Assembly: GCA_000739535.1 (NCBI GenBank)
Contig: DF820476.1
Span: 33,964 to 81,881, forward strand
Reading direction: 5' to 3'
DNA from: Candidatus Vecturithrix granuli
Lineage (GTDB): Bacteria > Moduliflexota > Moduliflexia > Moduliflexales > Moduliflexaceae
Length of the DNA stretch: 47,918 nucleotides
The notes beneath the pieces were generated by a model. It worked only from the letters and a program-made list of their open reading frames with translations. It did not search any database and was not told the DNA's origin. Shown piece by piece: positions 728-19,349 of this stretch. Each line of letters begins with the position of its first letter. Position 1 is the first letter of the stretch. The position numbers were made by a program, and so were the translations under genes.

Positions 728-3700
728 TCACTTGTAAATGACGGAGATGCCTTTGCGGCCGAACATTTTGACGATAAAGGGCATATCGCGGCGCACGTGA
801 ACAAAGTAGTTCGTGGTATGGTGAATAGGCAGGGATTTCAGCCAGTTCCAATCAATAAAATTGGCATCGGTTTTATACGGCACGGTGAAGTAGCCAGCGT
901 TCATGGAGACCAGATTGTGGAAAAAGTGCGAGCCTTGCGAGGATTCGATCACAAAATTGTCCAGGCTGGTTTCGACAATAACTTTCGCTTTATGAATATC
1001 AGTCCAGCGCACGGGCACGCCTAACGAGTGGTCGCGCGAACCCCAACGCCCGGGGCCGATCAGGATATATTCGCGATCCTCGATCAGCATTTGTTCGTTG
1101 ATCTGCTGAATTTCAGATTTCATTTGCAGGGTTTGGGCATGATCAAATTTTTGTGGATCAAGGTAGATCAGATCGCGAATATGCGAGATGACGCCGTTGC
1201 CCATGCCTTCCTCAGTATAAAGCAGCAAATGTTCGCGAGTGAGTTCGCTTTCATCGAACAAGAGTTCCTCCGAATGAATAAACAAAGGGCGGATTTGCAG
1301 GATATAGAATGTAGGCAGGATTTTTTCGTCTAAGCTTTTTTGGAGATTCACGGCGAATTCGATTTCAACGGGTGCGCCGAGAGCTTTTTCGCCAATATCC
1401 AGAATTTCTGTGAGAATCTCTGCCAGCGGAAAGCGTTTGTATTTTAAGATATTCGCAAAGGTGAGCACGCGCGGCCCATCGTAATAGAGACCGTCGCGCA
1501 GACGTTGCGTGCCCTCATCCCACACTGACGCGACATGCCACAATACGCCATCTCCTTCGGCTGCTCCAAGATCTAAGGTAGCAAGCGTGGCGCTGGCTCC
1601 CTCGGTCAAATCAATATTCTGTTGACGCAAATTCAAGGCAAAAAACGCCGTTTGACTGTTCTTCGCCAGTTCTTCAGGGGAGAGCACACGCAATTGCGGG
1701 TGTTGAGGGCAGAATTGGTAGGTGGGCTGCCCATCTACCACCCATTGTCCCAGGCCCAGCGCAATAGACGCGAATCCGTCGCTATGGCTCATGAACGGGG
1801 TCGGGTAATAATTGTAGGATTGCGCCACCCCAGAAATATGCGGGTAAAAATAGTCGCCATGACGGCTGCCCACGATTTCTTGAAGAATCACTGTCATTTT
1901 TTCTTCTTCTATCCGGTATTTAATACGTTCGATATAATTCCTGGCGTCATGCAGAAAGGCTGAGGCATACACCATTTTGACGGCGTCTTCGAGATGTTGT
2001 TGGCGCACATCCTGGTTAGGATGGTTGTTGGGAAGCATAAAAGTTTGATAAATGCCGGCAAAGGGTTGCGCCTGAGAGCCTTCGAGCAGTCCGGAAGATC
2101 TGATCGCAAGGGGATGGGTGACATGCTCTAAATAGACGGACAGTTTCTCCAGGAGAGAAGCGGATAACGACGCTTCTAAAAAGGCACGTTTGATAAATTC
2201 GTCGTCGGCCTCAACAATTTTTTCTTGCAGTTTATTGTCTTTGAGAAATGTGTCGAATTCAGCGGTACCGATAAATGCGGTTCGCGGAATTTTGATTTTC
2301 ACCGGCTGGAATTTTTCTTCCAACTCCATGGTCACGAAGAGCGCGTTTAAAAAGGCGATTCCTCGCCCCTTGCCTCCAAGCGACCCTTCACTTAAGCGTA
2401 CAATTTCATTTTCTCCGCCAGGATTTGCGGCGTCAAAGCTGATAATATTGCCTCTGGATTTGCGCGCGCGTACTTCTCGGAAGATCCCGATGAGAAATTC
2501 GCGTTCCAAATCGAAACTCCCGCCGAAATCTTCGACATGAAAGGGACGGATGTATCTGGCGACCTCGATTTCGCCGCGCGCGATCAGCCAGGCGGAAAAA
2601 TGGTTCCGGCGTGAGTGGTACGACAGGGTTTCATCGGGAATTTCTTGCAAGCGCTGTTCAAATTCTCCGATCGTCGAAGCGCGGGCGATTTCATTGCCCG
2701 CATAATCACGAAAGATAAAATCTCCAAAGCCTAAATTCGAGTAAATGAACTCGCTTAAATCGTTTAACAGAGATTTCGAATGTTTCTCTAAAAAGCTGAC
2801 ATTCAATTCGCGCGCCTTTTGCTTCAGAGTGGTTTCTGAGGATTGCAGCAGAATCGGAATATCGTAATTTTGTGATTTGAGATAATGAATGAGCTGAATG
2901 CCAGCTTCCGGGTCAAGCTGCCCCCGATTCAGAAAACGAATATCCGAAATTACACTCAACAGGTATTCTTTATATTTTTCACAGATTTGAATCGCATCTT
3001 CAAGCGTATGAGCCATGAGCACTTTGGGTCTGGTATGCCTGCGATAATTTTTCTGCATATCCGTCAATTCTTCAGAAATGAGGCGTTGGGTTTGCAGCAT
3101 GATTTCTTTATACAAAATCGGCAGAAAACGGGAATAATAATAGATAGAATCTTCGACCAGCAAGACCACGCGCACCAGCCCTTTCGCAGTATCGTGCTCG
3201 ACATTCATTAAATCTTCAACATATTTCACCATTGCCAGAAACACCTGCGGATCGCCGTTCCACAAAAACACATTATCAACATAACGCCGTTCTTTCGTGG
3301 TTCTTTCAATCAGGGGAATGTCAGCTTGACCAGTCAGCAGCAAGAGCACCGGTAAATTCGGGCGTTTCTGTTTGATTTTGCGGCTTAATTCAAAAGGCGT
3401 CATTTCACCGGTGCGCATCATGGTAATCACCAGATCAAATTCGATCTTGCCTTCATCAATTTTGCGTAAGGCTTCTTCGCCAGTCGGCACGCTGATAATT
3501 CGGGGCGGATAGGTGAGATTTAACTGGTGAAATTCACCGAAAATGCGTTCGGATAAGCGGCCATCCTGTTCAAAGATATAGGCGTCGTAAAAGGTCGAAA
3601 CTAACAGAATTTCTCTGATCCGCTTTTGCATCAGGGTATGAAAAATCTCTTCCCCATACTTGAGCTTATTGTAATAGATATTTAATTCTTGAACGTCCAT
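728..3700 (-). CDS. Dual receiver-like / PEP-synthase-like nucleotide-binding protein
   Basis: A 990-residue cytoplasmic protein. Residues about 28-160 look like a receiver fold lacking the usual phospho-acceptor (VITMMR where an Asp is expected). Residues about 175-320 form a second receiver with an acidic pair (E183, D184) and a candidate acceptor Asp in VISDIRF (about D253). The C-terminal two thirds matches the pyruvate/PEP-binding ATP-grasp domain of PEP synthase and pyruvate phosphate dikinase: GGKGRG near 442-447, RSSGLLEG near 534-541 followed by QPFAGIYQTF, and a C-terminal block GPGRWGSRD at about 882. I see no phosphohistidine swivelling domain and no PEP/pyruvate TIM barrel, so a full PEP-synthase reaction is unlikely. 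It may be a regulated phosphotransferase or a signalling output domain. Start supported by AGGAAC about 9 bases upstream. It follows the ABC-kinase fusion gene on the same strand with a repeat between them. Confidence 0.75.
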   Translation of the reverse strand: MDVQELNIYYNKLKYGEEIFHTLMQKRIREILLVSTFYDAYIFEQDGRLSERIFGEFHQLNLTYPPRIISVPTGEEALRKIDEGKIEFDLVITMMRTGEMTPFELSRKIKQKRPNLPVLLLLTGQADIPLIERTTKERRYVDNVFLWNGDPQVFLAMVKYVEDLMNVEHDTAKGLVRVVLLVEDSIYYYSRFLPILYKEIMLQTQRLISEELTDMQKNYRRHTRPKVLMAHTLEDAIQICEKYKEYLLSVISDIRFLNRGQLDPEAGIQLIHYLKSQNYDIPILLQSSETTLKQKARELNVSFLEKHSKSLLNDLSEFIYSNLGFGDFIFRDYAGNEIARASTIGEFEQRLQEIPDETLSYHSRRNHFSAWLIARGEIEVARYIRPFHVEDFGGSFDLEREFLIGIFREVRARKSRGNIISFDAANPGGENEIVRLSEGSLGGKGRGIAFLNALFVTMELEEKFQPVKIKIPRTAFIGTAEFDTFLKDNKLQEKIVEADDEFIKRAFLEASLSASLLEKLSVYLEHVTHPLAIRSSGLLEGSQAQPFAGIYQTFMLPNNHPNQDVRQQHLEDAVKMVYASAFLHDARNYIERIKYRIEEEKMTVILQEIVGSRHGDYFYPHISGVAQSYNYYPTPFMSHSDGFASIALGLGQWVVDGQPTYQFCPQHPQLRVLSPEELAKNSQTAFFALNLRQQNIDLTEGASATLATLDLGAAEGDGVLWHVASVWDEGTQRLRDGLYYDGPRVLTFANILKYKRFPLAEILTEILDIGEKALGAPVEIEFAVNLQKSLDEKILPTFYILQIRPLFIHSEELLFDESELTREHLLLYTEEGMGNGVISHIRDLIYLDPQKFDHAQTLQMKSEIQQINEQMLIEDREYILIGPGRWGSRDHSLGVPVRWTDIHKAKVIVETSLDNFVIESSQGSHFFHNLVSMNAGYFTVPYKTDANFIDWNWLKSLPIHHTTNYFVHVRRDMPFIVKMFGRKGISVIYK

Positions 3701-3882: not shown

Positions 3883-5703
3883 TCACGTATTCCCGCTCAC
3901 CGGCAAGCGAACGTGAAAGGTAGTTTTTTCACGACTTTCACAGGTGATAATTCCCTGGTGCGACTCAATAATATGCTGGCAAATCGAGAGTCCTAATCCT
4001 GAGTTGTGTTTCCCGACTTTGGTGGTAAAAAAGGGAGCAAAGATATGCTTCACGGTGTCTTCGGGGATGCCGTAGCCGTTATCGGTCACAGTGACTTCAA
4101 TATATTTTTCATCCGAGGAAAGGGATAACGCGAGTTCGATCTCCCCATCGTACATAACAGCTTCGATGCTATTGACAATCAGATTGATGAATACCTGTTT
4201 CAGTTTGTTCTCATCGCCAAAAATCCAGGTCTCCTGTTCCTGATGGTTCCAGGTCAGGTGTAGGTGTTTTTCTTTGATTTTGTGACTGAGCAGCAGAACC
4301 ACCTCATCGAGCAGCGTGACCAGATTGAGACGTTTCAAGGGCAGCTTTTTGAGCTTTGAAAAAGAAAGTAAACCGCCGATAATTTCCACAATGCGGCGCA
4401 GTTCGTTTTCCACTTTGCTCAACTTTTCGAGGCTGTCCTCATCACGATTTCTGCGCTTCAAGAGCGTGACATAATTCTGAATAATCCCCAGAGGGTTATT
4501 AATCTCATGTGCGACTCCGGCAGCCAGTTCCGCCACTGATGCGATTTTCTCGGTACGTAAAAAATATTCCTGGAAATAACGTTCTTTGGAAACATCTTCG
4601 ATCAGGAGAATTGTGCCGAGAAATTTATAATCTTCATCTTTGAAGGGGAAAATGTGCAGTTTCAGAATTTTTTCCTGCCGATATTCGAGTTCATCCCATG
4701 ACCATTCTTCTCTCTTCCGGATTCTGAATAAAATGTCCTCAGCATTGTGAAGCGCTTGCGGGGTAAACACCGTGTCAATGCGTTGGTTGCTCAGGTCAAG
4801 ATCTTCGATCTCAAGAATCCGGATCGCAGCATAATTGATAATATACACGCGATTATCGGGGTCGAGGATGATCACCCCTTCCGGCAGGTTTTTGATAATA
4901 TTTTCGTTATATTTTTTCAGCAGATAGAGTTCGCGATTGTCGCTTTCCAATTCTTCACGACTCATGACATACGAGTAGGTCAGCTTGATGAGTTTGATTT
5001 TATCGAGGTCCCGCACTTCCTCTGTGCCTCGCCGGTAGCCGTTTTTCAAGATTGTAACCCGATCGGCCACCTCAAAAATCTCATCCATATTGTGTGAAAT
5101 ATAAATCACGCTTTTCTGCTGGCGTTTGAATTCAGGCAGGAGTTTATACACATATTCCATCTCTTCCGGCGTGAGTTTGCTTGAAATTTCATCGAAAATG
5201 ATAATCTCAGGATCAAGGGACAGCACTTTCGCCAGTTCGACCATCTGCTGTTTATCTTGCGACAGGAATTCCAGCGGCACATCCAGGGGAATATCCACCT
5301 GCATGGCGGAAAAAATCTTTTCCGCTTTTTGGCGCATGGCCTTATACCTGATTCCCCCGAACCAGTTGATCATCGTCTGACCAGCAAAGATATTTTCAAC
5401 GGCATTCAGCGTCGGAATGACATTGATGCTCTGATACATCATGCCGATCTTCTGCTGCATGGCCGATTTCGGAGTAAAATGGTCTATTCGTTTGCCTTTG
5501 AACAGAATATCGCCTTTGTCTTTGACGACCGCTCCGCTTAACAACTTGACTAATGTGGATTTGCCGGCGCGATGCTCCCCGACCAGACCGTGAATTTCGC
5601 CCTGGAACACATCAAAGTCCACCCCTTGTAATGCCTTGCAGGCATCGTAGCTGACATGAATGTTGCGCATCTGAAGGATGGGAATCGGTTCTGAATTGGT
5701 CAT
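3883..5703 (-). CDS. Sugar-ABC ATPase / PAS / histidine kinase fusion
   Basis: About 606 residues. Residues 1-250 are the first nucleotide-binding half of an RbsA/MglA-type sugar-importer ATPase: Walker A GEHRAGKST (42-50), Q-loop in MMYQSINVIPT, signature LSQDKQQMVELAK (147-159), Walker B IIIFDE (167-172), H-loop ISHN (202-205). Walker A has HR where the family has NG, and the signature has Asp where Gly or Ala is usual, so ATP turnover may be weakened. Residues about 265-375 are a PAS domain. Residues about 390-606 are a HisKA/HATPase_c kinase core: GVAHEINNP with phospho-acceptor H399, N-box NLIVNSIEA, DNGYGIPE (541-548), SGLGLS. No transmembrane segment. The second ABC half of RbsA is thus replaced by a sensor kinase. 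The sigma-54 regulator lies immediately upstream. The reading frame stays open to an ATG at 5793, but those 30 extra residues are encoded by a mobile repeat, so I chose 5703; neither start has a good ribosome-binding site. The partner permease is unknown. Confidence 0.85.
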   Translation of the reverse strand: MTNSEPIPILQMRNIHVSYDACKALQGVDFDVFQGEIHGLVGEHRAGKSTLVKLLSGAVVKDKGDILFKGKRIDHFTPKSAMQQKIGMMYQSINVIPTLNAVENIFAGQTMINWFGGIRYKAMRQKAEKIFSAMQVDIPLDVPLEFLSQDKQQMVELAKVLSLDPEIIIFDEISSKLTPEEMEYVYKLLPEFKRQQKSVIYISHNMDEIFEVADRVTILKNGYRRGTEEVRDLDKIKLIKLTYSYVMSREELESDNRELYLLKKYNENIIKNLPEGVIILDPDNRVYIINYAAIRILEIEDLDLSNQRIDTVFTPQALHNAEDILFRIRKREEWSWDELEYRQEKILKLHIFPFKDEDYKFLGTILLIEDVSKERYFQEYFLRTEKIASVAELAAGVAHEINNPLGIIQNYVTLLKRRNRDEDSLEKLSKVENELRRIVEIIGGLLSFSKLKKLPLKRLNLVTLLDEVVLLLSHKIKEKHLHLTWNHQEQETWIFGDENKLKQVFINLIVNSIEAVMYDGEIELALSLSSDEKYIEVTVTDNGYGIPEDTVKHIFAPFFTTKVGKHNSGLGLSICQHIIESHQGIITCESREKTTFHVRLPVSGNT

Positions 5704-5718
5704 GAACAGTTTAAAAAT

Positions 5719-5881
5719 CGGGTTTTTGAACAATACTTCGGATAGTTTTGATTCTACCCCCCTCAATCCACCCGCAAGCGGGGGGAAGTGCATACGAGAG
5801 GTGTATGTCCAATTTCCCTCCGTTTACGGGGGGATAAAGGGGGGCACACGAAAACTGTCCGAACTATTGTTGAAAACCCCG
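5719..5881. mobile_element. MITE-like element with 32-bp terminal inverted repeats
   Basis: The left end (5719-5750) and the reverse complement of the right end (5850-5881) match at about 27 of 32 positions; both contain the core ACAATA-TTCGGA-AGTTTT. The interior holds two G/C hairpins (CCCCCC..CAAGCGGGGGG and CCCTCCGTTTACGGGGGG). No coding capacity. It sits exactly between the sigma-54 regulator and the ABC-kinase gene and supplies the spurious N-terminal extension of the latter, so it may alter the coupling of the pair. Confidence 0.7.
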
Positions 5882-5901
5882 GTTTTTCCCTGCAAATACA
5901 T

Positions 5902-7218
5902 CTATATTCCAAGCTTTTTCATGCGATTGTAGAGGGTTCTGCGGCTGATATTGAGAATATCCGCCGCTTTTTTCTTGACGCCATGACTTTTATCGAGGGC
6001 GTCGAGAATGATCTCGCGATTGAGGCTTTCAAAGGCTTCCTCATACGTGTTAACGGGCTGGTGTTCGATCAATTCGGCATATTGCGAGGCTAGTTCATTC
6101 ACCCCAATCTCATCCTGTTCGCAAAAAATGACGGCGCGTTCCAAGCAATTACGGAGTTCGCGCACATTGCCAGGCCATTCATGCTGTTGAAAAAACCAGC
6201 GCACGTCTTCACGCAGTCCGCTAATCCGTTTCTTATAGATTCGATTGAAGTGCTCGATAAAATAGTCCGCCAGCAGCAGAATATCATCTTTCCGTTCGCG
6301 CAGCGGCGGCAAATGAATGGTAATCACCGAGAGGCGATAATAGAGATCTTCACGAAATTTCTCTGCTGCCAGCAGTTTTTTCAGGTTTTTATTCGTGGCC
6401 GTAATAATGCGAATGTTGGTGTGGATGCTTTTCGTGCCCCCCAGCCGTTCGAACTCCTGCTCCTGAATAACGCGCAGAATTTTGGATTGGGTTTTCAGGC
6501 TCATGTCCCCAATTTCATCCAGAAAAATTGTGCCTGTGTTCGCTAACTCAAAGCGTCCTTTGCGTTCTTTGACCGCCCCGGTAAATGCGCCTTTTTCATG
6601 CCCGAACAGTTCACTCTCTAATAAATCGTCCGGTAAGGCCGCACAATTCACACGAATGAATGGCCTGTCCGCGCGCGGGCTGAGATGGTGCAGTGCATTC
6701 GCCGCGACTTCTTTGCCTGTGCCGCTTTCGCCGGTAATGAGCACAGGCGCCGCAGTTGGCGCAGCTTTCTCAATGGTTTTGAGGATTTTTTGCATCTCCG
6801 GGTTGCGGGTAATCAATTGGCAGGAAGGATCGGCAACGGCTGAACGATGTTGCAATCGAGCGGCGGCGAGTTCATGAATTTCGCGCAGTAATTCCGGTAA
6901 TTTGAGGGGTTTGGTATAAAAATTCAACGCCCCATATTTCATGGCCTGCACTGCATTCTCGACCGTCGGATAGCCGGTAATCATAATCACTGCAATCGAA
7001 GCGTCAGACTTTTTCACGGCCTTCAACAGATCAATCCCCCCGATTTCCGGCATTTTGACATCCATGAGGATCAGATCAATTTGTTCCTGGCGCAGGAGTG
7101 AAGACACATCGAGCGGATTCGTGGCATACAGCGTGGCATAGCCCTCATCGCGCAATAATTCCGCCAGCGAGAGGCACATTTCCAATTCGTCATCAACCAG
7201 GAGAATCGTATAAGGCAT
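5902..7218 (-). CDS. Sigma-54-dependent response regulator (NtrC/AtoC type)
   Basis: 438 residues with the classic three parts. The receiver (1-120) has DD at 9-10, phospho-acceptor D53 in ILMDVKMP and K103. The AAA+ sigma-54 activation domain (about 135-370) has Walker A GESGTGKE (163-170), the sigma-54 contact loop GAFTGA (210-215) and Walker B IFLDEIGD (231-238). The Fis-type helix-turn-helix ends the protein ([20 protein letters not shown]). It activates transcription from -24/-12 promoters when phosphorylated. The next gene on the same strand is the ABC-ATPase/histidine-kinase fusion, its probable cognate kinase. A strong sigma-54 promoter lies in front of the sugar importer at 15625-19349, a candidate target. 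Confidence 0.93.
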
Positions 7219-15376: not shown

Positions 15377-15392
15377 TGGCATAAGAATTGCT
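15377..15392 (+). promoter_or_regulatory. Sigma-54 (-24/-12) promoter of the sugar importer
   Basis: TGGCATAAGAATTGCT fits the sigma-54 consensus TGGCAC-N5-TTGCW with only the sixth base different. The invariant GG (15378-15379) and GC (15390-15391) are 10 bases apart, as required. It points toward the rbsA-type gene at 15625, giving a leader of about 220 bases that contains two repeat elements. It implies that the importer is switched on by an enhancer-binding activator such as the one at 5902-7218. Confidence 0.75.
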
Positions 15393-15624: not shown

Positions 15625-17202
15625 ATGAATCACGACAATAAGCCGACGCAATCCGTTCCGATTGTACGGATGAAGCATATTTGCAAAAGTTTCGGACGAG
15701 TACAGGTCTTGAAGGATGTTGAATTGGAAATCTTTCCGGGCGAAGTACACATTCTGGCGGGCGAGAATGGCGCCGGTAAAAGTACGCTGATTAAAATTTT
15801 AGCCGGCGCCTATCCGGATTTTGAGGGAACCATAGAGATTGATGGGAAATCTGTCTGTCCGCGTTCGCCGCAAGAAGCCACTGCCTTAGGCATTGCCGTG
15901 ATCCACCAGGAATTGTCGCTTGTGCCCTCAATGACCGTGGCGGATAATATCTTTCTGGGACGCTCAATGACCCGTCATGGTTTCGTGCAGGATACCTTGC
16001 AGAAAACGGAAGCCAGACGAGTTTTAGGTCTATTAGGATTAGACCTTGATGTTGACCTGCCCTTAGAAACCTACCCGATTGCCATTCAACAACTGGTGGA
16101 AGTGGCAAAAGCGATGAGTATTCAGGCTAAAGTGATCATTATGGATGAGCCGACCAGCGCCCTGAATGCCACGGAAGTGCAGAAGCTGTTTCATTTGATT
16201 GCCGAACTCAAAGCCAAAGGCTATGGCATTGTTTATATTACCCACCGCATGGAAGAGATCGAAGAAATCGCCGATCGTATTTCCGTGCTGCGCGATGGGC
16301 AATATATTGGCTCTGCGCCTGCCTCAGAACTCCCCATGCCAAAATTGATTCAGTGGATGGTCGGGCGTGCAATGGAACAGCATTTCCCTCGCCATCTGCC
16401 GCATATCGGAGAGGATCGCTTGCGTGTTGAAGAGTTCAGCCTTGATCTGGATCAGCATCGAGGTAAACCGGTGGTCAATAAGGTGTCGTTTTCTGTCCGA
16501 TCCGGTGAAATTCTGGGAATTGGCGGTCTGCGCGGATCGGGCGCGAGTGAGTTGTTGATGGGCCTGTTTGGCGCGTATGGTCATGCTGCTCAGGGAACGG
16601 TCAAATTGAACGGACAGGCCTTGCAAATCTATACTCCGCGCCAGGCGATTGATCGTGGGATCGCCTTGTTAACCAATGATCGCAAAGCAACCGGATTGGT
16701 ACCTTCCATGTCGGTCATTGCGAATGTGACGTTGGCTGATCTGAATCGGCTGTCGCCGAGTGGATGGCGACGACCTGAACATGAACGGCAGGTAACGCAG
16801 GAACTCGGGCAGGCGATCAATATTCGCGCCGCGTCGTTAGAGATGGAAGTCAATGAACTGTCCGGCGGGAATCAACAGAAAGTCGTGCTCGCCAAATGGC
16901 TTCAAACCAATCCGCAATTGCTCTTATTGGATGAGCCGACGCGCGGCGTGGATGTGGGGGCCAAATATGAAATTTACCAACTTATGAATGAATGGACGGC
17001 GCAGGGGATTGCGATTGTGTTGATTACCTCTGAAATGCCGGAATTACTGGCAATGAGCGATCGGATTGTCGTGATGCATCGCGGACAGATTACGGCGGCC
17101 TTTACCCGCGAACAGGCGTCAGCAGAAGCGATCCTGGAAGCTGCTATGGGAAAAACCTATCACCTGAACGGAAATCATTTTGGAAAGGAGAGCAATGTAT
17201 GA
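15625..17202 (+). CDS. Sugar ABC importer dual ATPase (RbsA/MglA family)
   Basis: 525 residues with two nucleotide-binding halves. The first has Walker A GENGAGKST, AIQQLVEVAKAM in place of the signature, and Walker B IIMDEPTSALN. The second has the usual degenerate Walker A (GGLRGSGAS), signature LSGGNQQKVVLAKWL and Walker B LLLLDEPTRGVDVG. Energises uptake of a monosaccharide such as ribose, xylose or galactose. ATG 15625 with GAGGAAAGG before it. First gene of an ATPase-permease-binding protein operon behind a sigma-54 promoter. The N-terminal half of the ABC-kinase fusion at 3883-5703 is a paralogue of the first half of this protein. Confidence 0.95.
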   Translation: MNHDNKPTQSVPIVRMKHICKSFGRVQVLKDVELEIFPGEVHILAGENGAGKSTLIKILAGAYPDFEGTIEIDGKSVCPRSPQEATALGIAVIHQELSLVPSMTVADNIFLGRSMTRHGFVQDTLQKTEARRVLGLLGLDLDVDLPLETYPIAIQQLVEVAKAMSIQAKVIIMDEPTSALNATEVQKLFHLIAELKAKGYGIVYITHRMEEIEEIADRISVLRDGQYIGSAPASELPMPKLIQWMVGRAMEQHFPRHLPHIGEDRLRVEEFSLDLDQHRGKPVVNKVSFSVRSGEILGIGGLRGSGASELLMGLFGAYGHAAQGTVKLNGQALQIYTPRQAIDRGIALLTNDRKATGLVPSMSVIANVTLADLNRLSPSGWRRPEHERQVTQELGQAINIRAASLEMEVNELSGGNQQKVVLAKWLQTNPQLLLLDEPTRGVDVGAKYEIYQLMNEWTAQGIAIVLITSEMPELLAMSDRIVVMHRGQITAAFTREQASAEAILEAAMGKTYHLNGNHFGKESNV

Positions 17203-18218
17203 AGCCAGAGACAACTGCTGAAACGAAAAAACCTACTCGTCTGAATCAGATGCTCGCTAGTTCTGCGGGCCGAGCCTTTATCGCGCTTATTCTGGTGCTT
17301 GTATTAGGCATGGTTTTTAATGCGGATGGCGCGTTTTTGAAAACCGGAACCCACCGGGATACGCTGCGCCAGGCATCGGTGTACGGTATTCTGGCCTGCG
17401 GGATGACATTAGTAATTCTCACTGGCGGCATCGATCTCTCCGTCGGGAGCGTATTGGGATTTATCGCGGTCTGTTTTTCGTTGATGAGCATCCATTTTTC
17501 CTGGTCGGCCTGGATTTCCATTCCCTTGTGTCTGTTGATTGGCGCAGCCTGCGGATCAATTTCCGGCGTCTTAACGGCCTGGTTTAAAGTGCAGCCCTTC
17601 ATCGCCACACTCGCCATTATGTCGGTTGCGCGAGGAATGGCAAAATATGTGAGCGGCGGCAGGAAAATCGCGACAGCGGTGCAAAATCCTGACGGCACGT
17701 ACCGCTATGTCGATCTCCCCAGTATTTTTCGCATGATCGATTCCCGCATTCTGGGGGGTAATCTGGCGGTCGTGACGGTGATTTTTTTCATCTGTCTTGC
17801 GATCGTATGGCTGTTCGTTGCCCGTCATCGTTGGGGCCGCCAATTATTTGCGCTGGGCGGCAATGAGGAAGCGGCGCGTTTATCCGGCGTGCCTGTGAAT
17901 CGGGCGAAACTTATGGCATACTCTGCTTCAGGCTTGCTTTCCGCAGTGGCGGGAATCTGTCAGGCTGCTCAGGAGCAGCAAGGCGATCCTGAATCGGGTT
18001 TCACCTATGAGATGACGGCGATTGCGATGGTGGTCATCGGCGGCACGAATCTGGCCGGCGGGCGCGGCGGCATCGGCCTGACGTTGTTAGGGATTCTTAC
18101 GATTGGGTACCTGGAAAAAATCCTGAGTATTAATGCGGTTCCCGAAGCCGGGCGTCTGATAGCGACGGGCGTCATTATTATTCTGGCGGTGCTCACGCAA
18201 GGAAGACGACGGAAATAA
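17199..18218 (+). CDS. Sugar ABC importer permease (RbsC family)
   Basis: 339 residues, multi-spanning. The family marks are GILACGMTLVILTGGIDLSV near residue 65, ALGGNEEAARLSGVPV, and TAIAMVVIGGTNLAGGRGG. The ATG overlaps the TGA of the ATPase gene (ATGA), so it is translationally coupled. Substrate not determinable from sequence alone. A candidate docking partner for the ABC module of the histidine kinase. Confidence 0.94.
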   Translation: MKPETTAETKKPTRLNQMLASSAGRAFIALILVLVLGMVFNADGAFLKTGTHRDTLRQASVYGILACGMTLVILTGGIDLSVGSVLGFIAVCFSLMSIHFSWSAWISIPLCLLIGAACGSISGVLTAWFKVQPFIATLAIMSVARGMAKYVSGGRKIATAVQNPDGTYRYVDLPSIFRMIDSRILGGNLAVVTVIFFICLAIVWLFVARHRWGRQLFALGGNEEAARLSGVPVNRAKLMAYSASGLLSAVAGICQAAQEQQGDPESGFTYEMTAIAMVVIGGTNLAGGRGGIGLTLLGILTIGYLEKILSINAVPEAGRLIATGVIIILAVLTQGRRRK

Positions 18219-18425
18219 CTGCAAAACAGACGAGTTCTGAGGGGGTGATAGTTCGGTAGAAAAAAACCAAGTGTTTAAAAAATGCAGTGAAAATACCTGG
18301 ATGGGGTGTAACTCAGACCTGTCCGACAATGTTCGACAAGTCCTGATAGTAAGAACTTTTGTTCCAAAGTAGTAGATCGAGATATTCACAACAATTATTA
18401 TCGTTTTTAATGGAGGGTATCACGT

Positions 18426-19349
18426 ATGAAGAAGTTTTTGACAGTCATGATCGTCATATTGTTCGTATGCACGTTTGCATTCACGGCGCTGGCCAAAGAC
18501 AAATATATCATTGGCATGAGTCAGTGTAACCTGGGCGAACCCTGGCGTGTGCAGATGAACGCTGATGTCAAAGCCGCCGCAGATCAACATCCGAACCTGG
18601 AAGTCGTGTATAAAGACGCACAGAATGATACGCTGAAACAGCGTGCGCATGTCGAAGAGTTCGTCAGCGCCGGCGTTGATTTACTCATTATCAGCCCCAA
18701 AGAAGCGCAGCCGCTGACTGAACCTGTCGCCAAAGCCATGGATGCAGGCATTCCAGTCATCGTGTTAGACCGGCGGGTTGTCGGCGACAAATACACCTGT
18801 TTCATCGGCGCCGATAATAAGATCATCGGCAAAGCTGCTGGTGAGTGGATTGTCAAGACCCTGGGAGGCAAAGGAAAAGTGGTTGAGCTGAAAGGTTTGA
18901 TGACTTCAACCCCTGGGCAGGATCGTAACTCCGGATTCCGCGAAGGGATCAAAGGATCAGAGATCGAAGTGATTTTTGAAGCGGATATGAAATGGCTGGA
19001 ACCGGATGCCCGCAAGGAAATGGAATCGGCCCTGGCCCGTTTCGACAAAATTGATCTGGTGTACGCCCATAACGATCCCGGTGCGCACGGCGCGTATTTA
19101 GCTGCGAAAGCGGCCGGACGCGAAAAAGAAATGAAATTTGTCGGCATTGACGCCCTGCCACACGAAGGCATCATGTACGTCAAACAAGGCATTATGGATG
19201 CCACCTTCCAGTATCCGACCGGCGGCGCGGAATCCATTGACATCGCGCTGAAAATCCTCGCTGGCGAACAGGTACCGCATGAAATCACCCTCGGTTCCCG
19301 CGTCTTTACCGCCGAAAACGTGGATAGCGGCGGCGAAGCGATTGAATAA
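18426..19349 (+). CDS. Sugar-binding protein (RbsB family)
   Basis: 307 residues. Signal peptide MKKFLTVMIVILFVCTFAF...ALA, then a type I sugar-binding fold (YIIGMSQCNLGEPWRVQMN, VDLLIISPKEAQPLTEPV, DAGIPVIVLDRRV, YAHNDPGAHGAY). GGAGGG lies before the ATG. It is 207 bases after the permease gene, a gap with no clear promoter, so it is probably co-transcribed. Family members bind ribose, xylose, galactose or related sugars; the specificity is unknown. Confidence 0.93.
   Translation: MKKFLTVMIVILFVCTFAFTALAKDKYIIGMSQCNLGEPWRVQMNADVKAAADQHPNLEVVYKDAQNDTLKQRAHVEEFVSAGVDLLIISPKEAQPLTEPVAKAMDAGIPVIVLDRRVVGDKYTCFIGADNKIIGKAAGEWIVKTLGGKGKVVELKGLMTSTPGQDRNSGFREGIKGSEIEVIFEADMKWLEPDARKEMESALARFDKIDLVYAHNDPGAHGAYLAAKAAGREKEMKFVGIDALPHEGIMYVKQGIMDATFQYPTGGAESIDIALKILAGEQVPHEITLGSRVFTAENVDSGGEAIE

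Follow-up and report, generated by a model that had tools for sequence, protein, structure and literature searches.

Escherichia coli MalK, the ATPase subunit of an importer, doubles as a regulator of its own operon by controlling MalT. Where nutrient uptake governs genes and a periplasmic sensor is lacking, the known cases use membrane kinases or whole transporters. The histidine kinase BceS, which acts with BceAB as a flux sensor, is devoted to an ABC transporter whose expression it controls (PMC8534201). In the CbrA/SLC5-STAC kinases and in KsAmt5, a transporter-derived part is fused to kinase domains; CbrA additionally contains PAS and has a response regulator as its partner (PMC7096432, PMC8534201). 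No description of a kinase carrying the ATPase half of an ABC importer was found in the open-access literature that we searched. Here, we describe a family of such kinases and propose, with moderate confidence in the model as a whole, that they are part of a unit specialised in controlling sugar ABC importers, in which the kinase reads the importer.

The window, i.e. the whole stretch of Candidatus Vecturithrix granuli DNA that was analyzed (47,918 nucleotides), contains the following features in the region of the kinase gene.

3883..5793, minus strand: ABC-PAS-HisKA-HATPase fusion kinase, annotated with 636 aa; homologues start at the equivalent of Met31
3898..4218, minus strand: HATPase_c domain (domain search)
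4351..4533, minus strand: HisKA domain with the H-box HEINNPL and the phospho-acceptor His429 in the 636-aa numbering (domain search)
4579..4905, minus strand: PAS domain, residues 297-405 (domain search)
4969..5682, minus strand: ABC domain of the RbsA NBD1 type, residues 38-275 (NCBIfam, tree, fold match)
5730..5870, no strand: palindromic dispersed repeat of ~140 bp, between the regulator and kinase genes
5902..7218, minus strand: NtrC/AtoC-type sigma-54 response regulator with REC (D53), AAA+ with GAFTGA, and Fis-type HTH

The kinase gene (3883-5793, minus strand) is a single open frame of 636 codons; a frame break between the ABC and PAS parts was looked for and is absent. Pfam detects ABC_tran (residues 55-203, E = 2 × 10−23), PAS_9 (304-402), HisKA (421-481) and HATPase_c (526-632) in the product, and the H-box, N-box and G-boxes are all present. 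Residues 38-271 align to residues 3-236 of RbsA (NCBIfam), the best NCBIfam match of the kinase half is AtoS, under the curated cut-off, and no curated NCBIfam model spans the whole ABC-kinase fusion. The preliminary description of this DNA viewed the kinase as an RbsA/MglA-type ATPase in which only the N-terminal half is retained and other domains stand in for the second; NCBIfam and the trees agree, and place the replacement exactly at the NBD1/NBD2 border. The second NBD is missing from the fusion, with PAS-HisKA-HATPase in its place, and MVGR, present at the cut point in RbsA, is missing in the fusions. The motifs quoted in that description (GEHRAGKST, LSQDKQQ, FDE, ISH, GAFTGA and D53) were all found. 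In the regulator, Pfam identifies Response_reg, Sigma54_activat, an AAA lid and a Fis-type HTH; its best NCBIfam match is AtoC, again under the curated cut-off.

The annotated kinase start appears to be misplaced. The true start is probably Met31 (nucleotide 5703), yielding a protein of 606 aa, because the first ~22 annotated codons are supplied by the dispersed repeat, which has more than 10 other near-full copies in the genome (80-94% identity), and because homologues start at this position. In an AlphaFold2 model of the fusion kinase (mean pLDDT 75), the ABC part has a complete fold that matches LptB with Z 25.9 across 231 residues; it is followed by a helix (287-301) and then by the PAS and kinase domains, the relative placement of the domains being unreliable at a pTM of 0.41. 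The median maximum KD19 hydropathy of the fusion members is 1.39 (highest 2.11) vs. 2.9 for RbsC, and by this measure a strong transmembrane segment is absent from most fusions; neither an SLC5 transporter domain nor a STAC domain was detected in the fusion kinase by Pfam. Beside the kinase gene, 728-3700 (minus strand) encodes a protein of 990 aa that contains a region resembling a response-regulator receiver and PPDK_N (the ATP-binding domain of pyruvate phosphate dikinase).

We collected 49 distinct ABC-kinase fusions, six from the source genome, three from a relative of the same family, and the rest mostly from Spirochaetota. The five further full-length fusions of the source genome show 31-69% identity, and a search of ~57 further relatives yielded no fusion at E 1e-60. 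Nine more fusions came from a scan of species genomes, mostly from Spirochaetales MAGs, with one from Sphaerochaeta and one from a MAG labelled Gynuella. At least one fusion is present in 17 of 393 Spirochaetota genomes. In the order of the Gynuella-labelled MAG, the fusion is sporadic, via transfer or mis-binning, because just 1 of 244 genomes, that MAG only, has it. The H-box HE[IV]N[NT]PL is present in 47 of the 49 proteins. Chance, a sequencing artefact or a frame break is ruled out as the origin of the fusion by these relatives in the source genome, the same-family relative and others. Two close fusion modules (L024 and L025; G000:C8:156000-179999) share a contig, and each has an rbsABC operon and a sigma-54 site of its own.

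The 49 ABC parts form one clade both in a tree with the partner RbsA halves (support 0.988) and in a tree that includes ~70 RbsA-type proteins from other phyla and places the ABC parts among 116 RbsA NBD1s (support 0.999). This clade lies near NBD1, apart from NBD2 and outside the partner RbsAs. Because all ABC parts fall in one clade, the trees point to a single fusion event that every lineage has retained; that the two subfamilies arose by separate fusions is ruled out by the tree.

The fusion gene is adjoined by the regulator gene on the same strand in 47 of 49 cases, and an RbsA-type gene is no more than 5 kb away in 43. Four of the six exceptions to the latter are at contig ends; the others are module L180 and the window. 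Nearly every fusion module encodes a complete RbsA. In the window, rbsABC starts 9.8 kb from the kinase, with a liv operon in between.

15377..15392, plus strand: sigma-54 −24/−12 promoter element TGGCATAAGAATTGCT, an exact match, 233 bp upstream of rbsA
15625..17202, plus strand: RbsA-type two-NBD sugar importer ATPase, 58-59% identity to the RbsA of modules L038 and L157
17199..18218, plus strand: RbsC-type permease, 64% identity to the RbsC of L038 and L157
18426..19349, plus strand: RbsB-type periplasmic binding protein (Peripla_BP_4), 72% identity to the RbsB of L038 and L157

To the other modules, the window RbsA, RbsC and RbsB show at most 43, 34 and 38% identity, respectively. The window importer (15625-19349) is likely to be the controlled partner of the window fusion, because it is orthologous to the importers of L038 and L157, two spirochaete modules in which the importer directly adjoins the fusion; the permease singled out in the preliminary description thus remains the likely partner. 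No solved relative of this permease was found by sequence. In L180 (6662-15130), the fusion pair adjoins a LacI-type regulator with DNA-binding and Peripla_BP_4 domains and araB/araD/araA-like genes (the araB-like product is an FGGY kinase by Pfam, and the araD/araA-like genes were judged by eye), with no importer; no sigma-54 site was found in this module, and one stop is reported in its kinase match. In the Gynuella-labelled MAG (L041:14678-15451), the partner ATPase, 257 aa long, has a single NBD with a canonical LSGGQ.

The sigma-54 pattern TGGCAY-N5-TTGCW has 59 sites in the source genome vs. 9 for a reversed-pattern control. In this genome, 4 of the 6 fusion modules have a strict site ahead of the importer, and the other two a site with one mismatch, compared with a strict site in 1 of 41 unlinked rbs operons (p = 4 × 10−4, strict sites). 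When all modules were considered, an element with at most one mismatch was found before 39 of 46 importer operons, and an exact one before 23, whereas the shuffle expectation over these 46 operons is 1.1 and 0.03, respectively. Among control operons, 5 of 93 had an element with at most one mismatch (p = 8 × 10−22 compared to the 39 of 46), and 4 of 93 an exact one. The 7 misses among the 46 include the second fusion of L024, for which the wrong operon was scored; the operon that belongs to it carries an exact site at 17699. The association of the pair with sigma-54 control, which had been proposed from the window alone, is supported across the family. The regulators of L037, L042-L045, L157, L158 and others have GAFTDA or GAFTNA instead of GAFTGA, and sigma-54 sites are kept in most of the operons concerned.

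In five modules of one subfamily (L026, L027, L028, L035 and L036), a TGTCAAG-NN-TTATTT-like element, possibly an IHF-like or regulator site, is located 64-67 bp upstream of the −24 box, and in a sixth module it is found 141 bp upstream of −24. Dyads of 6 bp with a 6-bp spacer are enriched (16 vs. 3.4). Neither this element nor such a dyad was found before the window operon, and a shared regulator box was dropped as a candidate.

From linkage and promoters, the kinase-regulator pair very probably controls importer transcription. We infer that the cytosolic kinase phosphorylates the NtrC-type regulator and that the phosphorylated regulator would activate, rather than repress, the sigma-54 promoter before the rbsABC-type operon. 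The most likely input of the kinase would be the importer itself, because the kinase lacks both a membrane part and a periplasmic sugar-binding part and is always built on an importer ATPase half. The ABC domain, an RbsA-type NBD1 freed from NBD2, would bind ATP and either dock onto the permease or form a pair with the importer ATPase RbsA, and the occupied or transporting state of the importer would change the kinase via the following helix and the PAS domain. This part of the model is tentative: we give slightly less than even odds to the ABC domain reading the permease or the importer ATPase, with the L180 pair, which has no adjoining importer, and the distance between kinase and importer in the window counting against it. 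More doubtful still is the specific arrangement in which the two ATPase halves of the kinase dimer dock on the permease as a non-working motor and report its state, i.e. a flux sensor.

Conceivably, the ABC domain could instead serve the kinase as an ATP/ADP energy gauge, with no importer contact, the importer being merely the regulated target. We consider this unlikely, although several features fit it. The residues that contact the nucleotide are the best kept, with the Walker A Lys and the Walker B Asp found in 49 of 49 fusions, and the dimer and hydrolysis parts are eroded: the H-loop His is kept in 65% of the fusions and gone in about a third, the D-loop Pro is present in 2%, and the signature Gly is kept in 2 of 49. 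With residues classed by our own grouping, retention of the RbsA consensus is 1.0 for phosphate-binding residues, ~0.7 for the Q-loop and EN, and ~0.4 for the dimer and hydrolysis parts. However, the Q-loop Gln, which couples the nucleotide to the membrane part, is also found in 49 of 49 fusions, and the EN of the segment after it is kept in 78-90%; moreover, an energy gauge has no need to stay near RbsABC-type importers in nearly every genome. The retention pattern suggests that nucleotide binding and possibly contact with the membrane part are under selection, and that hydrolysis is not. The Walker A Asn position is occupied by His in 96% of the fusions vs. Asn in 99% of RbsA NBD1s, and a G to R replacement is often found in this motif as well. 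Because of these Walker A alterations and the loss of the H-loop His in about a third of the fusions, ATP turnover by the ABC part, and perhaps even ATP binding, is uncertain. The unusual signature, which the preliminary description pointed out, is ruled out as a kinase hallmark, given that only about a third of the partner RbsA NBD1s keep this Gly.

Co-variation was assessed by correlating distance matrices. Those of the ABC part, PAS, kinase and regulator are mutually correlated (r = 0.73-0.86; the ABC part vs. kinase and regulator, r = 0.78-0.79), as are those of RbsA, RbsB and RbsC (r = 0.82-0.86), compared to r = 0.14-0.26 between the control unit and the importer. For the ABC part and RbsC, r = 0.26 drops to 0.13 once the kinase signal is removed, i.e. 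there is no co-variation with the permease beyond that signal, as would be expected of an energy gauge. Fine co-evolution of the ABC part and the permease is not seen in these correlations. By this measure, the control unit behaves as a block that is combined with different importers, with importers swapped between modules, and probably requires neither a finely matched interface nor one particular sugar. The correlation between the two sets being weak, any contact between the ABC part and the importer would therefore have to rest on generic importer features.

Equally improbable, in our estimate, is a reading in which sensing of a cytosolic sugar or sugar phosphate falls to the PAS domain and the ABC domain, with little part in sensing, acts as a scaffold for dimerisation or localisation. 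PAS varies more than any other part (mean identity 25%), as expected of a ligand pocket that changes with the sugar, importers differ widely between modules (mean RbsB identity 24%), and CbrA signals even without its transporter domain (PMC7096432). However, PAS distances do not track those of the binding protein (r = 0.19), and a mere scaffold should not keep the Walker A Lys, Walker B Asp and Q-loop Gln invariant at such divergence.

In ABC dimers, a working ATP site is completed by the half with the canonical signature. In the partner RbsA, this signature is in NBD2 (LSGGNQQK in 45 and LSGGNMQK in 1 of 46), which was dropped from the fusion; the fusion is, therefore, left without the site-completing half. 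That the ABC domain is still an importer motor, with the kinase dimer giving the permease a real ATPase pair so that transport goes on, would agree with the complete NBD fold and the catalytic Glu in 45 of 49 fusions but is highly implausible given this loss of NBD2, a signature without Gly in 47 of 49, an H-loop His missing in about a third, and the complete RbsA already encoded in nearly every module.

If the importer-reading model is true, bacteria may use a spare part of the pump to read sugar uptake: half an importer motor, in an ancient family of single origin, would have become the input of a kinase and been put to use again with many different sugar importers. For transport-coupled signalling, the family offers a clean system that lends itself to testing, and it may provide a portable sugar-sensing part.

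By gene linkage and promoters, the fusion family belongs with the transporter-coupled sensor kinases, its complex with the importer and its response to flux being predicted. The fusion ABC domain aligns end to end with NBD1 of the RbsA/MglA/XylG-type (CUT2) ATPases but differs from them in the absence of NBD2, the Walker A N to H change, the fusion to a kinase and the placement in a clade of its own. Among the two-component systems AtoS-AtoC, ZraS-ZraR and NtrB-NtrC, the first of which provides the best NCBIfam matches of the pair, none has an ABC domain. MalK is a working ATPase that acts by protein binding in trans, whereas here the ATPase half is a covalent part of a histidine kinase. As with BceS, the kinase, regulator and transporter genes are linked, and here, too, the transporter is very probably the target; however, BceS is a kinase of the membrane that lacks an ABC domain and serves a peptide transporter, and Bce-type kinases have two transmembrane helices and no cytosolic sensor domain, whereas the fusion is soluble, has ABC and PAS domains and no strong transmembrane segment, and goes with sugar importers and sigma-54. 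In CbrA, the other SLC5-STAC kinases and KsAmt5, a whole membrane transporter is fused to the kinase, whereas the fusion family carries just the soluble ATPase half of an ABC importer.
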